DNA of 64,000 nucleotides from Hyphomicrobiales bacterium. GTDB lineage: Bacteria; Pseudomonadota; Alphaproteobacteria; Rhizobiales; Rhizobiaceae. How positions within the stretch are numbered: the stretch's first letter is position 1; the number at the start of each line of letters is the position of its first letter. Positions 27,859 to 40,212 of this stretch are shown here, one piece after another. Made by a program: the position numbers and the translations under genes. The notes under the pieces are model-generated. The model did no database searches, was not told where the DNA came from, and was given only the letters and a program-made list of their open reading frames with translations. The stretch covers positions 1 through 64,000 of the forward strand of contig UCKM01000008.1 of NCBI GenBank assembly GCA_900473175.1, read 5' to 3'.

Positions 27859-28246
27859 GTGATCGGCCGACTGAAGCGCAATACCATCGTCGTCTCCACC
27901 TTCAAGAAGGCCTTCGTCCTTACGCGCGCCGTCGAACTTTGTAATGACAGCGTTTCCGGTTTTGACGGCGCATCTGCTTATCGCGACAGTCCGCAACCAG
28001 GTTGGATTGGTATGCGTGGGCTTGTTCATTTCTGCGGTAAAGTCAGTGGAGTTGCATCGCACTCGCCGTATCGAGGGCTCTTGTTGTTGCACAGCATTGT
28101 TCACGCGTGGTTCACCGTTGCAATCCTTTTTATGTATACGTTCTTTATCGACGCATGAGATTGTTAAGGTCTTGTATTGTCTTGCAGAACGCCATTTGTT
28201 GCTTTTATCATGGCGGTACCTCGCAAAGATCGTGGTCCTGCCCGCA
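27859..28246. other. Gap upstream of the Cache-domain cyclase gene
   Basis: About 390 bases without a supported gene. It should hold the promoter of the cyclase gene; no clear promoter or operator was recognised. Confidence 0.45.
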
Positions 28247-30166
28247 ATGAAATCGACCTCTCATACGCCCTGGACACGGCCGCTTAGAGTCCACCTCGGG
28301 CTGATCATCGTACTGCTGCTTATCGGCGTCTCCGCACCGCTCATCTGGCTCGGTTTCGACCGGGCGCGACAGGCGGCACTTACCGCGATCGACGAGCAGA
28401 TGGCGTCGCTCTCCGAGCGTATCGTCGACCACTATCGCGTCCTGTTCTCCGACAAGCTCGCATTCGTTGGTCTCGTGAGCGTCCTGGACTCCTTCCAAAA
28501 GCCACCGCCGGACCAACTCGACGAAAAGGTTGAATTTCTCGCCGAAGCGGCCATTCTCGCGCCGGATCTGGATGGCCTCCTCGTCGGCTATCCCGACGGC
28601 TCATTTCTTCGAGCCTTCAGTCTTCATAACGACGACCAATCGCGGAGGTTTCTGAATGCGCCCTCGGCGGCAACAATCGCCCTCCAGATCATCGCACCGG
28701 ACACTGGTGGCCGACAGATGTCCACCTGGCGCTTTCTCGACGATAACCGCCGGATCGTCGAGATCCGCGACCCTGTTCCGGAGGACTACGACCCGCGCCT
28801 GCGTCCCTGGTACAAAGCCGCGATCGCGGGGGATGGGAATGTAGTGACCCAAGCCTATGCGATGCCGCTAATGGGCGCAAAGGTCAAGACGCTCGCGCGG
28901 CGCCACGCATCCGACCCGCGCGTCGTGGTCGCCGCCAACATCCGGCTCGACACCATTGCCCGGTTTCTCGACGGTGAACGCATTTCGCCGCGCTCGACCG
29001 CTTATGTCTTCGATACCGACGGCAGTTTGATAATTCATTCTGACGCCGGCATGATGAACGTCATTTTATCGAACATGGAAAAAGGCACGAATTCGAAGGA
29101 TCTCGAGTCCCGCGATCCACTGCTTCCAATGGTGATGCGGCTGATCGGGAGTGGAATGGCCAAGGGCGCTACCACGTTGCACAGTGGCGCCGAGACATAT
29201 GTTACGCTCTTTGTGCCGGTCGATTTCACGTCGGTGTTGAAGGGCAGTACCATCGTTGTCGCTGCACCGCAGTCGGATTTTACGACTGAGACCAATTCGC
29301 TCATGCGCCAAGGGCTCGCAACCGCGCTGGCCGTGCTCGCCATTGGCCTCGCGATTGCCATCATCGTCTCCCGGATGATTGGCGCCTCGCTGACCAAACT
29401 GACAAGCCAGGCGCTGCGCCTGAGGGATTTGGATTTCGGACCCGTAGAGCCGGTCCGCTCCCGCATCACCGAAATCGGATCGCTCGCCGCCGCACTCGCC
29501 TCGGCGCGCGCAGCGATAGGCACATTCGGCCTCTACGTTCCCAAGGAACTCGTGCGCCGCATCGTCCAGTCGGGCTTGCGCGGGGAGCGCAGTGCCGCGC
29601 GTCAAGTCGTGACGGTCATGTTCACCGACATACGCGATTTCACCACGCTCTCAGAGCACAACGAGCCCGAAACGGTGGTGGCGCTGCTCTCTGATTATTT
29701 CGATCTCATGAACCGCGGCGTGCGGGAGAGCCGCGGTACAATCGTCCAGTTCCTCGGCGATTCCGTATACGCCATGTGGAACGCACCCGTCGCCAATGAA
29801 GATCATGCCGCCGATGCCTGCCGCTGTGCCCTGCGGCTGAAAGCCGATCTCGATGCCTTCAACGCGAGCCAACGGGAAACAGGCGCACCGGAATTCGTCA
29901 CGCGCTTTGGTCTCCATACCGGGCCGGCCGTTGTCGGCAATGTCGGAGCCGAGGACCGGCTACAGTATACGGGCATGGGCGACACCGTGAACGTCGCATC
30001 GCGGCTTGAGGGGCTCAGCAAGCAATTTGGGACTTATATACTCACAAGCCAGCAGACCGTCGACGCCTGCGCCGGTCGCTTCGTCTTCCGTCCACTTGGC
30101 CCGTGTGCGGTGAAGGGGCGGAAGGAGACGCTCGAAGTGTTCGAGCTTGTGGACGTTGTGGACTGA
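28247..30166 (+). CDS. Membrane class III nucleotidyl cyclase with dCache sensor
   Basis: A 639-residue signalling protein: TM1 at residues 15-37 (LGLIIVLLLIGVSAPLIWLG), a periplasmic dCache-like domain (about 40-350; EDYDPRLRPWYKAAIAGDG is its signature), TM2 near 355-377, a HAMP-like segment and a cyclase domain (about 455-635). Both metal Asp are present (MFTDIRDF near 458; FLGDSVYAMW near 500), as is NVASRLEG. The purine-specifying Lys is replaced by Gln (IVQFLGD) and the partner Asp by Thr-type YTGMGDT, as in class IIIb enzymes. Product probably cAMP. The ATG at 28247 fits TM1; the open frame runs back to 27944. Confidence 0.85.
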   Translation: MKSTSHTPWTRPLRVHLGLIIVLLLIGVSAPLIWLGFDRARQAALTAIDEQMASLSERIVDHYRVLFSDKLAFVGLVSVLDSFQKPPPDQLDEKVEFLAEAAILAPDLDGLLVGYPDGSFLRAFSLHNDDQSRRFLNAPSAATIALQIIAPDTGGRQMSTWRFLDDNRRIVEIRDPVPEDYDPRLRPWYKAAIAGDGNVVTQAYAMPLMGAKVKTLARRHASDPRVVVAANIRLDTIARFLDGERISPRSTAYVFDTDGSLIIHSDAGMMNVILSNMEKGTNSKDLESRDPLLPMVMRLIGSGMAKGATTLHSGAETYVTLFVPVDFTSVLKGSTIVVAAPQSDFTTETNSLMRQGLATALAVLAIGLAIAIIVSRMIGASLTKLTSQALRLRDLDFGPVEPVRSRITEIGSLAAALASARAAIGTFGLYVPKELVRRIVQSGLRGERSAARQVVTVMFTDIRDFTTLSEHNEPETVVALLSDYFDLMNRGVRESRGTIVQFLGDSVYAMWNAPVANEDHAADACRCALRLKADLDAFNASQRETGAPEFVTRFGLHTGPAVVGNVGAEDRLQYTGMGDTVNVASRLEGLSKQFGTYILTSQQTVDACAGRFVFRPLGPCAVKGRKETLEVFELVDVVD

Positions 30167-31439: not shown

Positions 31440-32117
31440 TCACATCTGGAACTGCTCGCTCGCATAACGCCAGTTGACCAGCTTATCGAGAACGGCCCGC
31501 ACATGTTCCGTGCGACGGTTTTCGTAGTCGAGATAATAGGCGTGCTCCCACACATCGATGCCAATTACCGGAATCTTGCTTAGAGCTAGAGGGGTACCTG
31601 CATCCTGCAATGCCAGGATTTCCAATTTGTTGTTGTCATTCACCAGCCACACCCAGCCGGTGCCGAACACCCTGTCCGATGCCTCTATCATCTGTTTCTT
31701 CAAATCATCCATTCCGCCAAAATCACGCTCAACGACGACTTTGAAGCTGTCGGTAGGTGCCTGTGGTCCACCTTTGAATTGCGCCCAATAGAAATTATGG
31801 TTCCAGGCTTGGGCTGCCTGATTGAAAATGGATTGGTCTTTGACCAGATTTGACTTTGAGATTACTTCCTCAAGCGTAATATCGGCATAGGGGGTGTTTT
31901 GAACCAATTGATTCAATTTATTGAAGTATCCGGCATGATGCTTTCCGTAATGCAGCCCGACTGTTCGCGCGGATATCGTGGGTGAGAGCGCATCCAGGTC
32001 GTACGGCAATTTCGGCTGGGAAAAAGCTGCAGCGGCAGATGAGGATATTCCCGACACCGCGGTACCCAAGATTGCTGAGCCCGACGCTGCGATAAAATGA
32101 CGGCGACTAAAAGTCAT
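31440..32117 (-). CDS. Tat-exported iron superoxide dismutase
   Basis: A 225-residue SOD with an N-terminal twin-arginine signal (FSRRHFIAASGSAILGTAVS, cut near residue 33) that would send the folded, metal-loaded enzyme to the periplasm. The metal ligands are visible: His in LHYGKHHAGY, His in AWNHNFYW, and Asp and His in DVWEHAYYLDYENRR. The Gln of AAQAWNH is the FeSOD-type second-sphere residue, so iron is the likelier metal. AAGGAG precedes the ATG. It converts superoxide to peroxide outside the cytoplasm. No operon partner. Confidence 0.93.
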   Translation of the reverse strand: MTFSRRHFIAASGSAILGTAVSGISSSAAAAFSQPKLPYDLDALSPTISARTVGLHYGKHHAGYFNKLNQLVQNTPYADITLEEVISKSNLVKDQSIFNQAAQAWNHNFYWAQFKGGPQAPTDSFKVVVERDFGGMDDLKKQMIEASDRVFGTGWVWLVNDNNKLEILALQDAGTPLALSKIPVIGIDVWEHAYYLDYENRRTEHVRAVLDKLVNWRYASEQFQM

Positions 32118-32228: not shown

Positions 32229-33794
32229 CTAGTGTGAAAGCAAGTACGTGGTAAATTTCCCGATTCCCCTGATATCCATCACTTCTTGACGGGCATCTGC
32301 GACGCTCCCACCAACAGCGTCAAACGTGCTTTGCGAGATCTGAATATGTCCGGGAATGCAGCAGGACTCCATCCGGCTGGCGACATTCACCGTATGCCCC
32401 CATACATCGTAGACGAACCGCTTTCGACCGATCAGGCCGGCGATTACTGGTCCAGTGTGGATTCCAATTCGTAGACGGAGCGCCGATGCCGGATCAGTTT
32501 CCCTGGCCGTTTCCGCCAACAATGCCCTGCCAAAGGCAATTGCTGCAAAGGCATGATCCGGCCGAGGATCGGGCAAGCCGGCAGCAGCCATGTATGCATC
32601 GCCGATGGTCTTGATCTTTTCAACGCCAAATCGGTCAGCCAACTCGTCAAAACGCGTGAAAAGGTTTCCGAGCATATTCACCAGGGCAACAGCAGGAGTT
32701 CGCGCTGCAAACTCGGTGAAATTTACGATATCAGCGAAAATGATCGTAGCCATTTCGATACGATCAGCTATCACTTCCTCCCCTTCGGCAAGCCGTTTTA
32801 CCACCTGTCTGGGAAGGATGGCATGGAGCAGCTTGTCGGCACGCTGCTTCTCTACTTCGATTTGAGCCAGGTAGTGTCGTTCACGTTCGCGCCAGCGGCT
32901 GCGTTCAAGACTGGCGGCAATACGGGCTTGCAACAAAACAGGGTCGATGGGCTTTTGCAGATAGTCTTCCGCGCCGGCCTCGATGCAGCGGATGACCGCA
33001 TGGGCTTCGTTAAGTCCCGAAATCATGATCACACGGATCTCGCGCATACGATCATCGGATTTGAGCCGGCCAAGGAGTTCAATGCCATTCATGTCTGGCA
33101 TCAGAATATCGGCCAATACGATATCGCATTCCTGTGTTTCGAGAATTCGAAGCGCCTCCTTGCCTGATGCCGCGACAATGACAGCATGACCCTCGCGGCC
33201 AAGGCGTCTTGCCAAAAGGTCCCGGTTGGATGCCGTGTCGTCGACGACGAGAATGCGCCCTGTTTCTTCGGGCAATGTGGAGGTACGTGCCGCGATCGTC
33301 CGCGCGACTTCTGCCGCGATCGTGATATCGACGTCATCTTTGGGCGTTTCGTAGACATCAGCGGAAAAGAGATCATGTTTTCCGTCGATCTGTTCAAGCA
33401 GAATTCGGCTTTCCTGAACTATTTTCAAAATGTCAGTTGTGACGCGTTCAGAGAGGGTATCAGTGAAGTCTTCTATAACCATCTCGGAATATCCGAGAAT
33501 CGCATTCATCGGTGTTCGCAGATCGTGCCGCAATTTGACGTCGAGAATGGGAGAACCTTTTACATCTGCCACCCCGATGTCGAGAATTCGCTTGATCAGC
33601 AGATTCAATTGATGGGCGGCACAAAGCACGCGTTCCAGATCGGGCAACGCGTCGGTTGGGCCCGCCTCGCGAACTTCTTCTACTACCAATTCCTGGTATC
33701 CGAGGATGGCTTGTGCTGGCTCGGCGATTTTCTGGACGATTCTCGCGATATACGCACGATGACCGATGTCAGGAGGTTGAGACAAGACGATCAC
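32229..33794 (-). CDS. DHp-receiver-adenylate cyclase fusion
   Basis: A 521-residue protein. Residues 10-60 are a degenerate DHp-like helix (EPAQAILGYQELV, His lost); residues 85-135 a second DHp with the phospho-His (LRHDLRTPMNAILGYSEMVI); no ATPase domain follows. A receiver (about 180-295) has the phospho-Asp in LADILMPDMNG and Lys in YLQKPIDP. The class III cyclase (about 330-515) is intact: FADIVNFTEFA, purine Lys in VEKIKTIGDAYM, Asp in YDVWGHTVNVASRM. cAMP production controlled by phosphorylation is expected. GTG start at 33794, overlapping the upstream CheY-like gene (GTGA). Confidence 0.9.
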   Translation of the reverse strand: MIVLSQPPDIGHRAYIARIVQKIAEPAQAILGYQELVVEEVREAGPTDALPDLERVLCAAHQLNLLIKRILDIGVADVKGSPILDVKLRHDLRTPMNAILGYSEMVIEDFTDTLSERVTTDILKIVQESRILLEQIDGKHDLFSADVYETPKDDVDITIAAEVARTIAARTSTLPEETGRILVVDDTASNRDLLARRLGREGHAVIVAASGKEALRILETQECDIVLADILMPDMNGIELLGRLKSDDRMREIRVIMISGLNEAHAVIRCIEAGAEDYLQKPIDPVLLQARIAASLERSRWRERERHYLAQIEVEKQRADKLLHAILPRQVVKRLAEGEEVIADRIEMATIIFADIVNFTEFAARTPAVALVNMLGNLFTRFDELADRFGVEKIKTIGDAYMAAAGLPDPRPDHAFAAIAFGRALLAETARETDPASALRLRIGIHTGPVIAGLIGRKRFVYDVWGHTVNVASRMESCCIPGHIQISQSTFDAVGGSVADARQEVMDIRGIGKFTTYLLSH

Positions 33795-34156
33795 GCTCCA
33801 GTCAGGCGGACGATCTTGGTGATCAGCGCCGATAAGTCGATTGGCTTGGTGTCATAATCATCGCACCCGGCATCGATCGCCTTTTCCCGGTCACCAGCCA
33901 TTGCGTGCGCAGTAAGCGCGATGACAGGGATGGCGGCAGTAGCGGGATTGGCCTTGATCTGGCGGGTCGCTTCCCAGCCGTCAATCACCGGCAAGCTCAT
34001 GTCCATCAAGACGAGATCCGGCATCACGCTGAGTGCCGCCTCAACGCCGGCTAGTCCATCAGTCGCTATAATCACCTCATATCCACGCCGTTCAAGGCGG
34101 CGGGAAAGCATGTCCCGGTTCATCTCATTGTCTTCGACGAGAAGAATCTTGACCAT
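33791..34156 (-). CDS. Single-domain response regulator (CheY/DivK-like)
   Basis: A 121-residue stand-alone receiver: acidic pocket in ILLVEDNEMNRDML, phospho-Asp in LVLMDMSLPVIDGWEATRQI near residue 52, Thr in ALTAHAM and Lys in DYDTKPID. The closest look is to DivK-like receivers. GAGGAGCC lies before the ATG (MVKILLV), 13 bases after the hybrid kinase gene, and its stop overlaps the cyclase start. It probably carries phosphate between the kinase and the cyclase protein. Confidence 0.9.
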   Translation of the reverse strand: MVKILLVEDNEMNRDMLSRRLERRGYEVIIATDGLAGVEAALSVMPDLVLMDMSLPVIDGWEATRQIKANPATAAIPVIALTAHAMAGDREKAIDAGCDDYDTKPIDLSALITKIVRLTGA

Positions 34157-34169
34157 CTTTTCAGGCTCC

Positions 34170-36884
34170 TCACGCACTTTCGCTCAAGGGCACATGCCGA
34201 TTCAAGGCAGCGATGAGATCAGCACGGCCTTTCGTTCCCTTGCGGACTATTTCGGTCGCACGCACCTTCAGCCAATCCAATTCCTCGCGCGTCAAATCTT
34301 TTGACGTAACGACAACGACCGGAATATCGGCGAGTTCCTGTCGTTCCTGGATTGCCCGAAGTAGTGCGAAACCATCCATGTTGGGCATCATCAAGTCGAG
34401 CACCATCACCGTCGGCCGTCCAGCTTCCAATTCGGCAAGACCATGCCGTCCATCGGTAGCCTCCCGGACATGCCAGCCCTCGCGCGCCAGCACTCTTCGG
34501 AAGAGCTCACGCGTCGCTGGGTCGTCATCGACGATCAGGACGTCGCGCCGGCCGGGACCAGCGACAGCGTTCAACGTATCAATCAGTTGGCGAGGATCGA
34601 TTGGCTTGATCAAATGGGCCGCCGCGCCGAACGCCAAGCCCATTTCACGATCCGCCACGACCGTGGCAAGTATCACCGGAATATCGCGAAGCGCTTCATC
34701 GGACTTGATTTCACGCAACACAGACCAGCCATCCTGGCCCGGCATGATTACATCCAAGATGATCGCATCCGGCCGGGATTTTCGCATTTTTGCGATACCT
34801 TCCTCGCCACCCGCGGCCTCGATTACCGTGAAGCCGGCGCTGCGGCTCGCATCCGATATGACTTTACGCGCCCGCGCTTCATCGTCGATCACGAGAACGG
34901 TCCCACGGGACGGCGTTCCCTCCTGGACCTCCGATTGTTGCTGGATGAGCTGCGCGACCTGCGCCTTGTGGTACGCGGGAATCTTGAAATGAAATGTCGA
35001 TCCCTTGCCGAACTCGCTTTCAACGGAGATCGTTCCGCCCATCATCTTGATGAAATGCTGGGTGATGGCCAAGCCAAGTCCCGTGCCCCCGTAATTTCGT
35101 GTGGTAGAGGAATCGACCTGTACGAATGCTTGGAAAAGTTGTGCCTGCTGCTCTTTGGTCATTCCAATCCCGTGATCGGTGACGGAAAATTCAATCCAAT
35201 CCCCATCGCTGTCACGGTAGCGATCGGCTGCCAATCGGATTTCATCGTTCTCAGTGAATTTGGCAGCGTTCGAGAGGAGGTTGAACAGGTTCTGACGCAG
35301 CTTGGTCTTGTCGGTATGGATTTCGTCAGGCACGACCGAGGCGGTGACTGTTAGCCGGTTGCCGTTTTTTGCAATCAATGGCGCGACAGTGCTCTCAACA
35401 TCCTTGAGGAGTTGGGCTACGCCGACCGGCTCGATGTACAGCTCCATTTTGCCCGCTTCGATCTTCGACAGATCGAGAACATCGTTGATCAATGCCAGCA
35501 GATGGCGTCCCGATGCCATGATCTTCCCAAGATCCGCGACAAAGCTGGGTCTATCCAGCTCACTTGCGTCTTCAACAAGCATTTCGCTATAGCCAATGAT
35601 GGCGTTCAAGGGAGTGCGCAGTTCATGGCTCATGGAAGCAAGGAAGCGACTCTTCTCGTCGCTCGCGACCTCTGCTCCGCGCCTGGCCTCATCCAGTTCC
35701 GCATGACGATGTTTCAAATCAGTGATGTCCGTGTAAACCGCCACTGTACCGCCCTCAGGCGTTTTGCGCTTGGCAATGCGGAGCCACATTCCGTTGGCGA
35801 ACTGCCGTTCGATCGTCCCATGCGGCTCGCTGTGACGACGGATAGCCTCGCTTACCCAAGCCTCGACATCGGCGTTTCCAAGGTCAGCTGTGCCACGCTT
35901 CGCCTGGGCGCGAATAATATCTTCAAATCGCGTTCCCGGTTTCATGAGGTCGGCAATTTCGGGGAATATCTCAAGGTACCGTTGGTTGACCATGACCAGC
36001 CGATCCGACGCGTCAAAGAATGCGAAGCCGTCTGGTATGGTCTCAATCGCCGTCAGAACAGTATTTCGCTGGCGCTCGGCGGCCGCTTCGAGCCTTCGAC
36101 GCTCTGCTTGCCCGTCGCGCAACAAGCGTAGGGTGGTGGAGAGCCGGCCGAATTCGTCGCGACCCTCAGGGGGAAGCTCAACATCTGCCTGCCCTTGTGT
36201 CAATTGGATCATTGCCCTATCGACGCGGCCGAGCGGAACCAAGATCGACCGAAGCACCAGCCACGTCATCATTGCGCCGGCTATTGTTATGCAGCCCACC
36301 GCGATTACGGCGCGGATAAACGTATTACGGGCTGTCGCCGCGGCGGCATCGCGTGCCTGGTCTGCTTCCATCTCAAGCCGATCTTCAAGCGTCCTGAGTG
36401 CGCCATCGACTTCGTCACTAAAATTTCTGGCGGCAGCCAGCAGCGTGTTTCCCACGACGCGGTTGTCAGCCGTATAAGCGTCGACAGCCTGCATGGCATT
36501 TTTGTAGTAGGCTTCGGAACGCTGCTGGATGGTATCGGCGGCTTCCGGCGCAAAGACCTTGATGCGCGCCAAATCCTCTGCCAATGCGGCGCGGGCAGCT
36601 TCGGCGCGGCGCTCTGACAATGTCAGCAGGCTGACGGAGAGATCCGTGAGCCAATATCGCACCTCGCCAAAATGCCTGTGGGCTTTTGCAGCTTCGTCAA
36701 ACATGTGGAAGCGATCATTTGCCTCTTCGACACGTCGCTGGTTTTCAAGCAAATCTCGCGCCATGAACGCGACACTTACCGATAAAGCACCAAGCAACAC
36801 TGCCGAAAGACAGACAAGCCGGAGAGGAATTTTGCGATCCGCCAGACGAAGGACCCATGTCCGGATGGCGGCGAAAGCGCTCAT
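34170..36884 (-). CDS. Hybrid histidine kinase with two receivers
   Basis: A 904-residue membrane kinase: TM1 near residues 22-46, a periplasmic helical segment, TM2 near 190-213, HAMP to about 265, PAS (about 275-400; [20 protein letters not shown]), HisKA ([20 protein letters not shown] near 420), HATPase ([31 protein letters not shown]) and two receivers with phospho-Asp in [13 protein letters not shown] and [13 protein letters not shown]. All catalytic boxes look intact. The ATG at 36884 overlaps the stop of the DUF3365 gene (ATGA). It is the likely input kinase of the downstream receiver and cyclase. Confidence 0.92.
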
Positions 36885-37630
36885 CTGAAAAGCGTTATAC
36901 TAATTGCACCAGCGAGATCGCCCTCGGCTCCCCCCTCCTTGGGATAACCCGAAATGTCGATCTCGCCTTTAGGCTTGCCATGACAAGCCAAGCAGGACGC
37001 CGAATAGTATTCGGGAATTAGCATACGAAAGGAATTGCGGCCGTCCATCTGGACTTCCTCAACGAAGGACCGACCTTTTGTCCATTCGCCAGACAGGAAT
37101 TTGCTCTCGATTATGCGCTGCTCCCAAGCATCCGGACGGGCCTTACGATTGCGCACAAGGTCTTCCGGTGCCGTCACTTTCATCTTTGCCCGATCACCGA
37201 CTTTCTCTTCAAATCGTTCGTTGACTAGCCTGGCAAATGTAGCTGGAATAAATCCCTTGAACCCGACTCCCTTGGCGTCGATTTCCTGCTGGTGCTCGTC
37301 GACAACTTCCCGCAATGCTTCGATCTGGGCATCGAAGAGCTGCTGATCCTGGGCGCTGAGATGTTCTTCTGAAGCCGATTTTCCCTGGCGCCCAGCGTAG
37401 ATTTGAAGGGCCTCCGTCACGACCCGTTGGCCCGTGAGGTCCTTCTTTCCAATCGAGGCGTTGTTGATCAGGTCTTGATGGTTGGATATTACGCTCCGGC
37501 CAGCACGCAAAAAGGCGGCTAGCCTCTCTCCCGTAGCAATATCGTCATTGTTATCTGCTGCGACCAAGCTCGCGAGAGTACAAACACTGATCGATGCTAA
37601 AATGACTGCGCATCTCGGGCCGCGATGCAT
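36881..37630 (-). CDS. Periplasmic haem-binding DUF3365 (Tll0287-like) protein
   Basis: A 249-residue secreted protein: signal peptide at residues 1-25 ([17 protein letters not shown]), a helical region, then the DUF3365 domain with the c-type haem site CLACHGKP near residue 215, preceded by [13 protein letters not shown]. Family members bind haem and often form the sensory part of histidine kinases. Here it is a separate protein, translationally coupled (ATGA) to the hybrid kinase, so it is probably its ligand-sensing partner for redox state or a gas. The ATG at 37630 follows GGGAAAAACT; an ATG at 37642 is also possible. Confidence 0.85.
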
Positions 37631-37812
37631 AGTTTTTCCCATTTATTAGCTGATGAAACGCGATCATATCAGACATGATCCGAATCCCAAACGCACTATA
37701 TCGGGTTAACTTTTGCATCCCAGGTGAGGGGCTTGCAGGTCTCGATGTTAAGTATCCTGCCGTCTCTGGCGCCAGTAATACTGCCCGAGGCGATCTCCAA
37801 AGGGGGTGACTA

Positions 37813-39933
37813 CTATGTGGCCACACAAACCGTTCCGGCCAATTCGGGGGTTAGGTCCTGGTCTTGGGAACATTTGCTCACCAGAGCGTGGTTCAAATAC
37901 TGCGGACGAGCCAGAGTGATCTGACCGCTGGTAACGATCTGCTCAAGCGGGGCAGGGCGTCCGAGATAATAGCCTTGCGCTTCGTCGCAGCCTTCCGTGT
38001 TCAGAAGTGAAAGCTGGCCAGAGGTTTCGATACCTTCGGCCAGGACAGGGATATCCAGACTTTTGCCGAGCGCCAACACCGCCCGAATGATCGCCTTGGC
38101 TTGAGGACTGGTCTCGACTTCGCTCATAAAGAAGCGATCCAGCTTGATCTTGTCGAACGGGAAAGCCCGCAATGTTTCGAGCGAAGAATAGCCTGTCCCG
38201 AAATCATCGAGGGCGATGGTCACTCCAAGCGCCTTGATCCGTCGCAGAATGTGTAGCGAACGAGCCTTATCCGCAATGATGGTGGATTCCGTCAACTCCA
38301 GTTCCAGCCGGGTTGGAGGCAGTTTCGTTTGGAGCAGCACCTCATGAACCAGGGTCGGCAGATCAGCATGAACGAACTGGACCGGAGAGAGGTTAATTGC
38401 GACCTTGAACGGCGGCTCCCAGGAGGTTGCCTCGGTACAAGCAGTTCTCAGCACCCACTCCCCCAGTTGCAGGATGAGACCGCTCTCTTCGGCCAGCGGG
38501 ATGAACTCGGAGGGCGGGATAAAGCCAAGTTTTGGATGCTCCCAGCGGAGCAGCGCCTCATACCCACGAATCTCCCCCGTGGAGACGGACGTCTGCACCT
38601 GATAGTGGACGTCGAGCTGACCATTATCCATGGCGTCCCTGAGTTCGCTTGCCAACGCGCGGCGGGCTCTGACCGTTTCATCCATTGACGGTTCGTAAAA
38701 GCAGATCGCTGTGCTCACATCCGCCTTGGCCCGGTACATCGCGAGATCGGCATTGCTGATAAGTGTTTCCATGGAGTTGGCATTGTCGGGATAGACGGCA
38801 ACACCCATGCTGGCTCCAGTCGTGAGCTCGTAATCATCCACGTGGATGGGCTTGAAGAGCGCTGTTTCGAGCCGGGTCAGAAAATCCAGAAGGTCGGCAT
38901 GGCTCCGTGTGCGGTGAACCGCGGCGAATTCATCCCCGCCAAGCCGCCCGACGAACTCTCCATCGCGCAAAAGACTGACCATGCGGCGCGCGAGAATCCT
39001 CAGCACTTCATCCCCGGTACCATGGCCGCGAAGATCGTTGACCTCCTTAAAGCGGTCCAGATCGATGCCGATGAGAGCGACCTTATTCCCTGTCTCTTCC
39101 GCGATCGCGATCTCATGACCAAGGTGATCGTTGAAGCTTGCCCTGTTTGGTAGGCCTGTCAGGCTGTCATTGAGTGCCATATGGCGGAGTTGCTGATACG
39201 ACTCCGCCCGCACACTGTCGTCGATGAGATAGCTGGCAAGCCCCGTACCCACGACAATCAACGCCACTGCGGCGACGGCAAGCGCCAGCGCGTGCAAGGC
39301 AGCGGGGTTGGAAAAAGCCCCTTCGACCAGCATTGGTGAAACCTGGAAGGCAGTCATCCCCGTGAAATGTAAGCAGACGATCGCAAGCACCAGGACGCCC
39401 GTCGCGATGAATTTGTCGCCCCAGAAGGCGCGGCGAAGGGCGAAGTGCAGTGCCAGAGCGGTGAACGCGACCGACAATATGACCGATGCCACGAGATAGG
39501 ACATGTCCCACGCAACGATGCCCTGCACGCGGTATGCCAACATGCCGGTATAGTGCATGGCTGATATCGCCAAACCCACGATGCCACCGCCGACAACCGG
39601 GGCCAGTCGTGTAATGCCACTGGCCGCTACGATGAACCCCAATGCTGCACCCGCCATGGCAACGAGCAGGGACACAATCGTCAGGACGGGATCGAAACTA
39701 ACCGGGACACCGGGTTCATAAGCGATCACCGCTATGAAATGCGTGCACCAGATCGATGATCCGGCCGCGGCGGCGGTCAGAAAATGCCATCCGGCTTGTT
39801 GCAGACCGATTGTGCCGGTCGTCCGCTGAAACAGGCGGATGATAGCCCACGAACCCGCCACACAGACGCTTGCGGCAACAAGCACCAGCCACATATTGTG
39901 CTTAAAGGCTACGCACCCCAGTACAGTGAGCAT
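37813..39933 (-). CDS. MHYT-GGDEF-EAL c-di-GMP enzyme
   Basis: A 706-residue membrane protein with seven helices forming an MHYT sensor (motif copies in WCTHFIAV, SAMHYTGM and CLHFTGM), a GGDEF domain with intact LGGDEFAAV (about residues 275-430) and an EAL domain with YEALLRWEHP, ELTES and DDFGTGYSS (about 440-700). Both synthesis and breakdown of c-di-GMP are possible. MHYT domains are thought to bind copper and sense a gas such as O2, CO or NO. The ATG at 39933 is chosen; a TTG at 39951 is in frame, and neither has a clear ribosome site. Confidence 0.9.
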   Translation of the reverse strand: MLTVLGCVAFKHNMWLVLVAASVCVAGSWAIIRLFQRTTGTIGLQQAGWHFLTAAAAGSSIWCTHFIAVIAYEPGVPVSFDPVLTIVSLLVAMAGAALGFIVAASGITRLAPVVGGGIVGLAISAMHYTGMLAYRVQGIVAWDMSYLVASVILSVAFTALALHFALRRAFWGDKFIATGVLVLAIVCLHFTGMTAFQVSPMLVEGAFSNPAALHALALAVAAVALIVVGTGLASYLIDDSVRAESYQQLRHMALNDSLTGLPNRASFNDHLGHEIAIAEETGNKVALIGIDLDRFKEVNDLRGHGTGDEVLRILARRMVSLLRDGEFVGRLGGDEFAAVHRTRSHADLLDFLTRLETALFKPIHVDDYELTTGASMGVAVYPDNANSMETLISNADLAMYRAKADVSTAICFYEPSMDETVRARRALASELRDAMDNGQLDVHYQVQTSVSTGEIRGYEALLRWEHPKLGFIPPSEFIPLAEESGLILQLGEWVLRTACTEATSWEPPFKVAINLSPVQFVHADLPTLVHEVLLQTKLPPTRLELELTESTIIADKARSLHILRRIKALGVTIALDDFGTGYSSLETLRAFPFDKIKLDRFFMSEVETSPQAKAIIRAVLALGKSLDIPVLAEGIETSGQLSLLNTEGCDEAQGYYLGRPAPLEQIVTSGQITLARPQYLNHALVSKCSQDQDLTPELAGTVCVAT

Positions 39934-40212
39934 CGTTGGATTGGCTTTCAATTAAGACGTTTCTTCGTCTACCGTAGCGTCGGGGGCTTGATACAGGATT
40001 AACAATTTCGGTCGATGGTGATTGAAGTGTAGCAATTGCTGTTGGCGCGTAAGCGATCTTGCCGGTGTGATGTAGTCAGCGGGAATGCAGTGGAATCGGA
40101 ACTGATGGTCGCGCGGTAGGTTCAGATGCGCATTTGACTGCTTTTCGCAAATTGATTCGGTCCACGGTTCAATTCGTGGCTCCTCGGCGTCCTCAAGAAT
40201 TCTCCTCGTAGT

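Follow-up and report, generated by a model that had tools for sequence, protein, structure and literature searches.

Introduction

The Spo0F-Spo0B-Spo0A phosphorelay is made up of a lone receiver, a phosphotransferase that is based on a dimerization and histidine phosphotransfer (DHp) domain and has no kinase activity, and an output receiver; both Spo0B and ChpT form homodimers and carry a degenerate ATPase domain. In TorT/TorS and LuxP/LuxQ, a separate periplasmic protein is combined with a hybrid kinase, and cyanobacterial CyaC carries receiver, kinase, receiver and cyclase in one chain. The present analysis concerns a four-gene operon in a stretch of 64,000 nucleotides (contig UCKM01000008.1, assembly GCA_900473175.1; Hyphomicrobiales bacterium, Rhizobiaceae), hereafter the window, which encodes a haem protein, a hybrid histidine kinase, a lone receiver and a receiver-adenylate cyclase with two DHp domains at its N terminus. 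With moderate confidence, the cassette is proposed to be a sensor-to-cyclic AMP (cAMP) phosphorelay, in which a TorT/TorS-like two-piece sensor feeds a Spo0F-Spo0B-Spo0A-like relay.

The haem protein is a member of PF11845 (DUF3365; Tll0287-like or sCache_heme). According to the passages of PMC12889525 on this family, nearly half of its proteins are stand-alone, so the statement in a preliminary description of this DNA that DUF3365 is usually fused to its kinase was wrong. The same passages distinguish redox-type members, which stand alone, from nitric oxide (NO)-binding members, which are fused, the redox example having Cys/His ligation and the NO-binding example (Target 2) lacking that Cys. 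The word "operon" does not occur in the paper. For rhizobia, passages of PMC10463352 describe Sinorhizobium meliloti CyaC as one membrane protein with b-haems in a domain of six transmembrane (TM) segments; they also give S. meliloti 28 adenylate cyclases and call the organization of its separate cAMP lines unclear.

The operon and its tandem DHp protein

Four minus-strand open reading frames (ORFs) make up the operon (32229-37642 of the window) in the order haem protein (36881..37642, 253 aa), hybrid kinase (34170..36884, 904 aa), lone receiver (33791..34177, 128 aa) and tandem DHp-receiver-class III adenylate cyclase (32229..33794, 521 aa). The haem/kinase and receiver/cyclase junctions are 4-base overlaps, and the use of an alternative lone-receiver ATG at 34156 leaves a 13-base gap to the kinase; the four genes are joined as described previously. 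The haem gene also has an alternative start at 37630, the in-frame ATG of residue 5. Promoter and terminator counts at the operon were no higher than chance level.

The most unusual part of the locus, underrated in the preliminary description, is the N terminus of the cyclase protein. Pfam matched HisKA, Response_reg and Guanylate_cyc (1.4e-52) in this protein. HATPase was not matched, in agreement with the earlier view that a kinase domain is lacking, and the histidine phosphotransfer (HPt) profile PF01627 was not among the Pfam matches at E ≤ 0.01. The N terminus was found to consist of two whole consecutive DHp hairpins, DHp1 (residues 9-73, 33576..33770) and DHp2 (residues 82-137, 33384..33551; HisKA, 4.6e-10), and hence of four helices, not of the two DHp-like helices first reported. 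An AlphaFold2 model of the tandem, calculated from 24 rows, placed these helices at 2-37, 40-66, 75-103 and 109-130 of one chain (9-44, 47-73, 82-110 and 116-137 of the protein), with 78 of 166 residues at a predicted local distance difference test (pLDDT) value of ≥90 and a predicted template modelling (pTM) score of 0.69.

The two hairpins differ at the phosphorylation site. In DHp2, His90 (33525..33527), the sole phospho-acceptor candidate of the tandem, was present in all 28 alignment rows holding the region (L031 and L142 lack it; L numbers denote loci), and this His and the H-box Pro were invariant in 24 rows, as in HisKA hairpins. In DHp1, the position expected for His is occupied by Gln21 (33732..33734), and across the 28 rows Gln was found 22 times, Glu five times and His once (L149). 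The earlier claim of one lost His therefore stands (Gln or Glu in 27/28), and DHp1 is a pseudo-DHp that keeps the H-box Pro at +5 in 24/24 rows (P19 in alignment A1). Both DHps of the tandem matched kinase cores in L129 and L130, and a tandem profile searched against the PDB matched the histidine kinase 4jas through DHp2 (1.3e-9).

In a sample of 397 genomes of the order, 15 held a full-length tandem. Among the tandem-matching places at E ≤ 1e-5, with at most 8 candidates scored per genome, the operon kinase was included in 15/15 of these genomes and was the sole other match in 14/15. This suits shared receiver partners, and the tandem may have been derived from the operon kinase or be co-evolving with it. 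Two genomes showed ORFs of 2816 and 2962 aa that looked like giant fusions of the cyclase, but these were rejected as artefacts of frames running through N stretches.

The receiver of the cyclase protein kept two acidic residues, the phospho-Asp (Asp229, 33108..33110), Ser and Lys in 30/30 rows, which include near-identical congeners (L125-L128; L026 and L123) and are not 30 independent cases. The class III cyclase domain (32235..32768) contains in the window all six catalytic residues of an adenylate cyclase, as claimed earlier, namely, a presumed metal Asp pair (Asp355/Asp399), the adenylate-type Lys395/Asp463, presumed to contact adenine, and a presumed catalytic Asn/Arg pair. These six were kept in every row with a letter, except for one Lys-to-Arg and one Asp-to-Pro replacement; the columns have a gap or N in 2 to 4 rows for four residues and in 1 or 2 for the others. 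The domain is predicted to make cAMP.

The hybrid kinase and the lone receiver

The membrane kinase contains the Pfam domains HAMP, PAS_7, HisKA, HATPase_c and two Response_reg and, by hydropathy, TM segments at 23-41 and 193-211. The periplasmic region between them (residues 42-192, 36309..36761), where the haem protein may dock, looks helical by eye and gave no Pfam match at E ≤ 0.01. The phospho-acceptor His420 (35625..35627), the N and G boxes and both phospho-Asp residues were kept in 33/33 rows (36 minus the partial kinases L030, L147 and L148), and with these residues and domains the protein is a hybrid histidine kinase.

The lone receiver is a Spo0F/DivK-like single-domain response regulator (Pfam, 3.1e-25) with its phospho-Asp kept in 34/34 rows. 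Variation was seen at other positions: the first acidic residue is Glu in 7/33 second receivers of the kinase and in 34/34 lone receivers, and the Thr is Ser in 4/33 first receivers and 1/34 lone receivers. Together with the cyclase receiver (30/30), these counts bear out the intact phospho-sites of the preliminary description.

The haem protein

The haem protein scored 71.5 bits against a curated PF11845 cut-off of 24.1 (1.3e-19) and carries a CLACH haem-binding motif (CXXCH; residues 217-221, 36980..36994), of which the C, C and H columns were invariant in 38/38 rows of alignment A2, 29 of them operonic. Its identification as a c-type-haem DUF3365 protein was thus correct. An export-type hydrophobic segment lies at residues 13-27 (hydropathy). 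The best PDB structure matches of a structure model (pLDDT 94, pTM 0.90) were 5b82 (Tll0287, E 2.6e-3) and 3b42 (GSU0935), both solved haem-Cache proteins, at weak E-values. A PDB sequence search with the protein alone gave no match, and its profile matched 5b82 at an E-value of 0.024 only. The genome of the window has one PF11845 match and also CcmE (1.8e-33), whose presence makes covalent haem on the CXXCH motif possible.

As a separate 253-aa gene product without fusion to a signaling module, the protein resembles sCache_heme Cluster 1 (redox type; Tll0287, P. putida Target 1) and not Cluster 2 (NO type), but the axial Cys of Cluster 1 is absent. In 34 of 35 operonic haem proteins, including that of the window, the last 223 residues contain only the CXXCH Cys pair; the L030 protein has five Cys there, and its C-terminal frame differs. 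Non-operonic relatives (L032-L069) likewise lacked an extra Cys in 34 of 38 cases, three of these 34 being fragments. The axial Cys may therefore not define Cluster 1, most stand-alone relatives being without it.

Near 14 of these 38 relatives (L035-L037, L039, L041, L045, L047, L050, L051, L053, L055, L058, L068 and L069), genes for a putative receiver and a putative kinase were seen on the opposite strand; in 11 cases they begin no more than about 0.3 kb from the haem gene. This neighbourhood may be a second mode of pairing with two-component systems or simple shared synteny.

Conservation and distribution

The conservation survey called for in the preliminary description was carried out on 39 sources (the window, L024-L031 and L122-L151). 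The full order of haem protein, kinase, receiver and tandem protein was found in 26 of them, from 25 distinct genomes, L026 and L123 being the same genome. In L124 the cyclase occupies two frames, parts of L129 and L130 read N, and the cyclase domain of L130 is unreadable. Of the sources without the full order, L147 and L148 are cut by contig ends, and L149 represents the far side of a cut of this kind; L150 and L151 contain weak haem-protein relatives without the operon; and in L144 and L145 a convergent receiver-SpoIIE gene stands beside haem protein, kinase and receiver. Other families of the order share the gene order, with individual parts at roughly 33-80% identity, so that the arrangement is more than chance.

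At E ≤ 1e-5, the haem protein had a match in 27 genomes of the order sample, with a score over 190 bits in 20. For the cyclase protein, the N-terminal part was matched in 54/397 genomes at the same threshold, mostly by ordinary kinases; in 15 of the 54 the match exceeded 60 bits and covered most of the tandem, and 14 of these 15 were among the 20 genomes with a strong haem match. The haem protein was present in 10/20 genomes of the genus and 0/15 of other genera of the family. From this patchy presence and the kept gene order, the genes seem to be gained and lost as a set.

Among plasmid records, the haem protein matched 79 at E ≤ 1e-20 (67 Sinorhizobium, 10 Rhizobium, 1 Phyllobacterium and 1 Aureimonas) and the cyclase protein 80 at E ≤ 1e-60. 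All four genes are on pSymB of S. meliloti 1021, at about 363905-369371, and in strain ml47 they are annotated as a DUF3365 protein, a response regulator, a response regulator and a cyclase-domain protein. In Aureimonas AU20, haem protein, kinase and receiver are accompanied by a convergent response-regulator gene. The S. meliloti 1021 tags should be SMb20355 to SMb20358, counted from SMb20353/SMb20354 and SMb20362 as given in passages of PMC12542648. Two genes follow the cyclase in S. meliloti (L197, 13557-15624), the second being SMb20360 by count; a passage of PMC3462710 lists SMb20360 as expressed in nodules and absent from free-living cells. The record of L031 is named Mycobacterium sp. 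KBS0706, yet its operon is otherwise alphaproteobacterial, and the name looks doubtful.

The gene set, presented earlier as undescribed, is thus not unique, as 26/39 sources and pSymB carry it. Among the titles and abstract openings listed in literature searches, mostly without subscription journals, no description of the operon or of a tandem-DHp phosphotransferase was found, and the relevant passages of PMC12542648 and PMC3462710, matched by gene tags, do not describe the operon.

Exchange of sensors and outputs

One locus of the order, L141, has no haem protein. It encodes a Peripla_BP_5 protein, a dCache-HAMP hybrid kinase (the dCache match being below the Pfam cut-off), a lone receiver and the same tandem cyclase. 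In a class sample of 385 genomes, 223 gave a match to the tandem profile at E ≤ 1e-8, in most cases via a single DHp. At least 12 places outside the window span both DHps; 11 were examined, G486 (a 923-aa frame) being left out. One of these, the match in genome G511 (L195), is a 534-aa ORF with an MHYT-like start (by eye) and a kinase core and was set aside as a kinase, so that 10 places in 9 genomes were retained.

At these class-level loci, the full haem operon was found at L185 and L191. Tandem-cyclases without the haem protein were found at L186, L188, L189 and L190, with a DctP gene between kinase and cyclase in L188, and SpoIIE replaces the cyclase in L187, L192 and L194 (Pfam) and in L193 (near-identical N terminus). 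A kinase gene and a lone-receiver gene were both found in the stretches of L188, L189, L190, L192 and L193. A second alignment of 12 proteins, 10 of them new and including those with SpoIIE outputs and other sensors, had Gln in DHp1 and His in DHp2 in 12/12. In a phylum sample of 398 genomes, 13 matched the tandem at E ≤ 1e-17; two of the 13 lie outside the class and match over profile positions 41-133 only.

Some further features of these loci were observed. L204 (292-1917, minus strand), one of the two matches from outside the class, encodes a tandem-receiver-cyclase with Gln and His as expected by eye, beside a helicase-like ORF. L192 and L193 come from 1.2-Mb genomes in which the tandem-DHp-receiver gene has a hybrid kinase and a lone receiver in its vicinity; a DUF3047 gene is present in L192 as well. 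An alpha-amylase-family protein is encoded between the lone receiver and the tandem-DHp-SpoIIE gene in L187 (6674-8800) and L194 (6557-8632).

Proposed relay and alternative explanations

Judged from sequence, the conserved cassette, which is carried by bacteria associated with roots, for instance Sinorhizobium, probably passes a signal from an extracytoplasmic haem protein via a phosphate relay to the cyclase. On the basis of the parts observed, the integrity of their key residues, their joint conservation and the sensor and output swaps, the following course may be drawn. The exported c-haem Cache protein would bind a small ligand or follow the redox state in the periplasm and would contact the kinase at its periplasmic region, in the manner of TorT and TorS; the periplasmic protein in its place at L141 follows the TorT/TorS pattern. 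The kinase would autophosphorylate on His420 and pass the phosphate to its own receivers, to the lone receiver or to both. A receiver, most simply the Spo0F-like lone one, would hand it to His90 of the tandem DHp, a putative single-chain pseudo-dimer with a dead site (Gln21) and a live one that would work like Spo0B, ChpT or an HPt domain. Transfer from His90 to Asp229 in the same protein would then switch the cyclase dimer and so raise or lower cAMP. The preliminary description had drawn a path from haem protein through kinase and receiver to cyclase; conserved gene order supports it well as one functional unit, and its biochemical steps are all predictions.

More tentatively, the tandem DHp may represent a distinct phosphotransfer class and the standard adaptor of an exchangeable relay cassette. 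A DHp would have been duplicated in one chain that folds as its own dimer, with one site changed from His to Gln and one kept. Sensors (c-haem Cache, Peripla_BP_5, perhaps DctP) and outputs (cyclase, SpoIIE) would have been swapped around a kinase-receiver-tandem core, and the haem version would be a periplasmic NO- or redox-to-cAMP line in rhizobia.

Several results weigh against the proposed relay. Receiver-cyclases without the tandem occur at L030, L031 and L142, and L143-L146 have haem protein, kinase and receiver with no cyclase in the stretch; hence, the tandem is not needed in every version. The relay step through it is likely but not certain, because the tandem-less loci point to a direct route that can work as well. 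The lone-receiver route is not unique, since the kinase itself contains two receivers. Nor is the core always found together, as L186 has neither kinase nor lone receiver within 9 kb and L187 and L194 have a receiver but no kinase, the L194 stretch reaching a contig end. One row, L149, retains His in DHp1, and shared descent accounts for part of the conservation. Of the 995 matches of a Foldseek search with the tandem model, the 50 listed included neither a histidine kinase nor ChpT or an HPt protein. This lack of a kinase was expected, because a kinase chain holds only one hairpin, but it gives no support either. Designed and unrelated helical bundles were listed instead, such as the single-chain ROP redesign 1yo7 (TMt 0.70), and such matches to a model are not informative on descent.

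The input signal would be NO or redox, with NO preferred only slightly. The absent axial Cys had been considered as proof of NO sensing, an argument weakened by the non-operonic relatives: the absence is not special to the operon (34/38 of L032-L069; an extra Cys is present in the kinase-fused L063 and L065), and because it is common outside, it allows NO but does not single NO out. In addition, NirK was not found in the genome of the window. A redox input within the same relay, the possibility raised in the preliminary description, is possible, though held with low confidence; respiratory or extracellular redox partners would oxidize or reduce the haem, as has been proposed for stand-alone proteins of the Tll0287 type. 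It is favored by the redox roles assigned to stand-alone proteins in passages of PMC12889525, by the commonness of Cys absence among stand-alone relatives, which need not mean NO, and by a superoxide dismutase (SOD) gene after the operon in the window and in 4/45 tested loci (three distinct genomes). It is countered by the absence from the operonic proteins (34/35 with the CXXCH Cys only) of the Cys ligand of the characterized redox-type member, a Cys that, in the same source, NO-binding Target 2 also lacks.

Plain two-component wiring would have the kinase phosphorylate the cyclase receiver directly, with the tandem as a dimerization or docking element and the lone receiver as a phosphate sink. 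Class III cyclases need dimers, and the tandem-less receiver-cyclases of L030, L031 and L142 suggest that direct transfer can suffice. Docking, however, would need no invariant H-box His, which DHp2 keeps (28/28 and 12/12) while DHp1 has lost it, and this wiring is considered unlikely. That the haem protein is an electron carrier placed in the operon by chance is very unlikely: it is an exported single-haem protein with family members elsewhere beside unrelated genes (e.g., L044), but the kinase is the next gene in 20/20 order-sample genomes with a haem match over 190 bits (G154 and G258 being cut by contig ends further on), and in L141, the single genome of the order that has the tandem without a haem protein, the kinase is preceded by a Peripla_BP_5 gene.

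Neighbouring genes in the window

Directly upstream of the operon on the same strand lies a gene for an MHYT-GGDEF-EAL cyclic di-GMP protein (37813-39951, minus strand), which had no match at E ≤ 1e-20 in 45 related loci, whose upstream flanks are often only 2 kb. The Fe/Mn SOD gene (31440-32117, minus strand) is directly downstream, as also in L025, L122 and L026 (the genome of L123). A second class III cyclase is encoded about 2 kb from the operon (27944-30166, plus strand), with a dCache match below the Pfam cut-off. The genome of the window has 19 PF00211 matches.

Comparison with known systems

What is new about the cassette is mainly its tandem DHp adaptor and its two-piece haem sensor, each a new form of something known. 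On the sensor side, the likeness to the sCache_heme family as presented in passages of PMC12889525 lies in the CXXCH motif, the 5b82 and 3b42 structure matches (at weak E-values) and the export segment. The protein is stand-alone like redox Cluster 1 and without the axial Cys like Target 2, and differs from both in being genetically bound to a separate kinase. The published split between stand-alone redox and fused NO sensors is thereby questioned, as the stand-alone member here apparently serves a kinase as its sensor half. The two-piece arrangement, including Peripla_BP_5 in L141, resembles TorT/TorS and LuxP/LuxQ, except that the partner is a c-haem Cache protein, its contact with the kinase being suggested by co-occurrence only.

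On the relay side, the succession of lone receiver, DHp phosphotransferase and output receiver of Spo0F-Spo0B-Spo0A and of ChpT is repeated in the cassette. Unlike Spo0B and ChpT, which combine a homodimeric DHp with a degenerate ATPase domain, the tandem has two DHps in one chain, one site dead, with no ATPase domain found, and is fused to receiver and cyclase. If it works as proposed, it shows a natural route from a homodimeric kinase domain to a single-chain phosphotransfer domain, and its occurrence with SpoIIE outputs would mark a general adaptor.

On the output side, the predicted haem-linked cAMP control in a rhizobium is shared with S. meliloti CyaC, for which the passages of PMC10463352 mention no phosphorelay, and one of the S. 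meliloti cyclases would gain a complete, testable input line. A class III cyclase under phosphorylation control is likewise found in cyanobacterial CyaC, whereas here four separate genes, a separate haem sensor and a predicted DHp phosphotransferase in place of the kinase in the cyclase protein are used.

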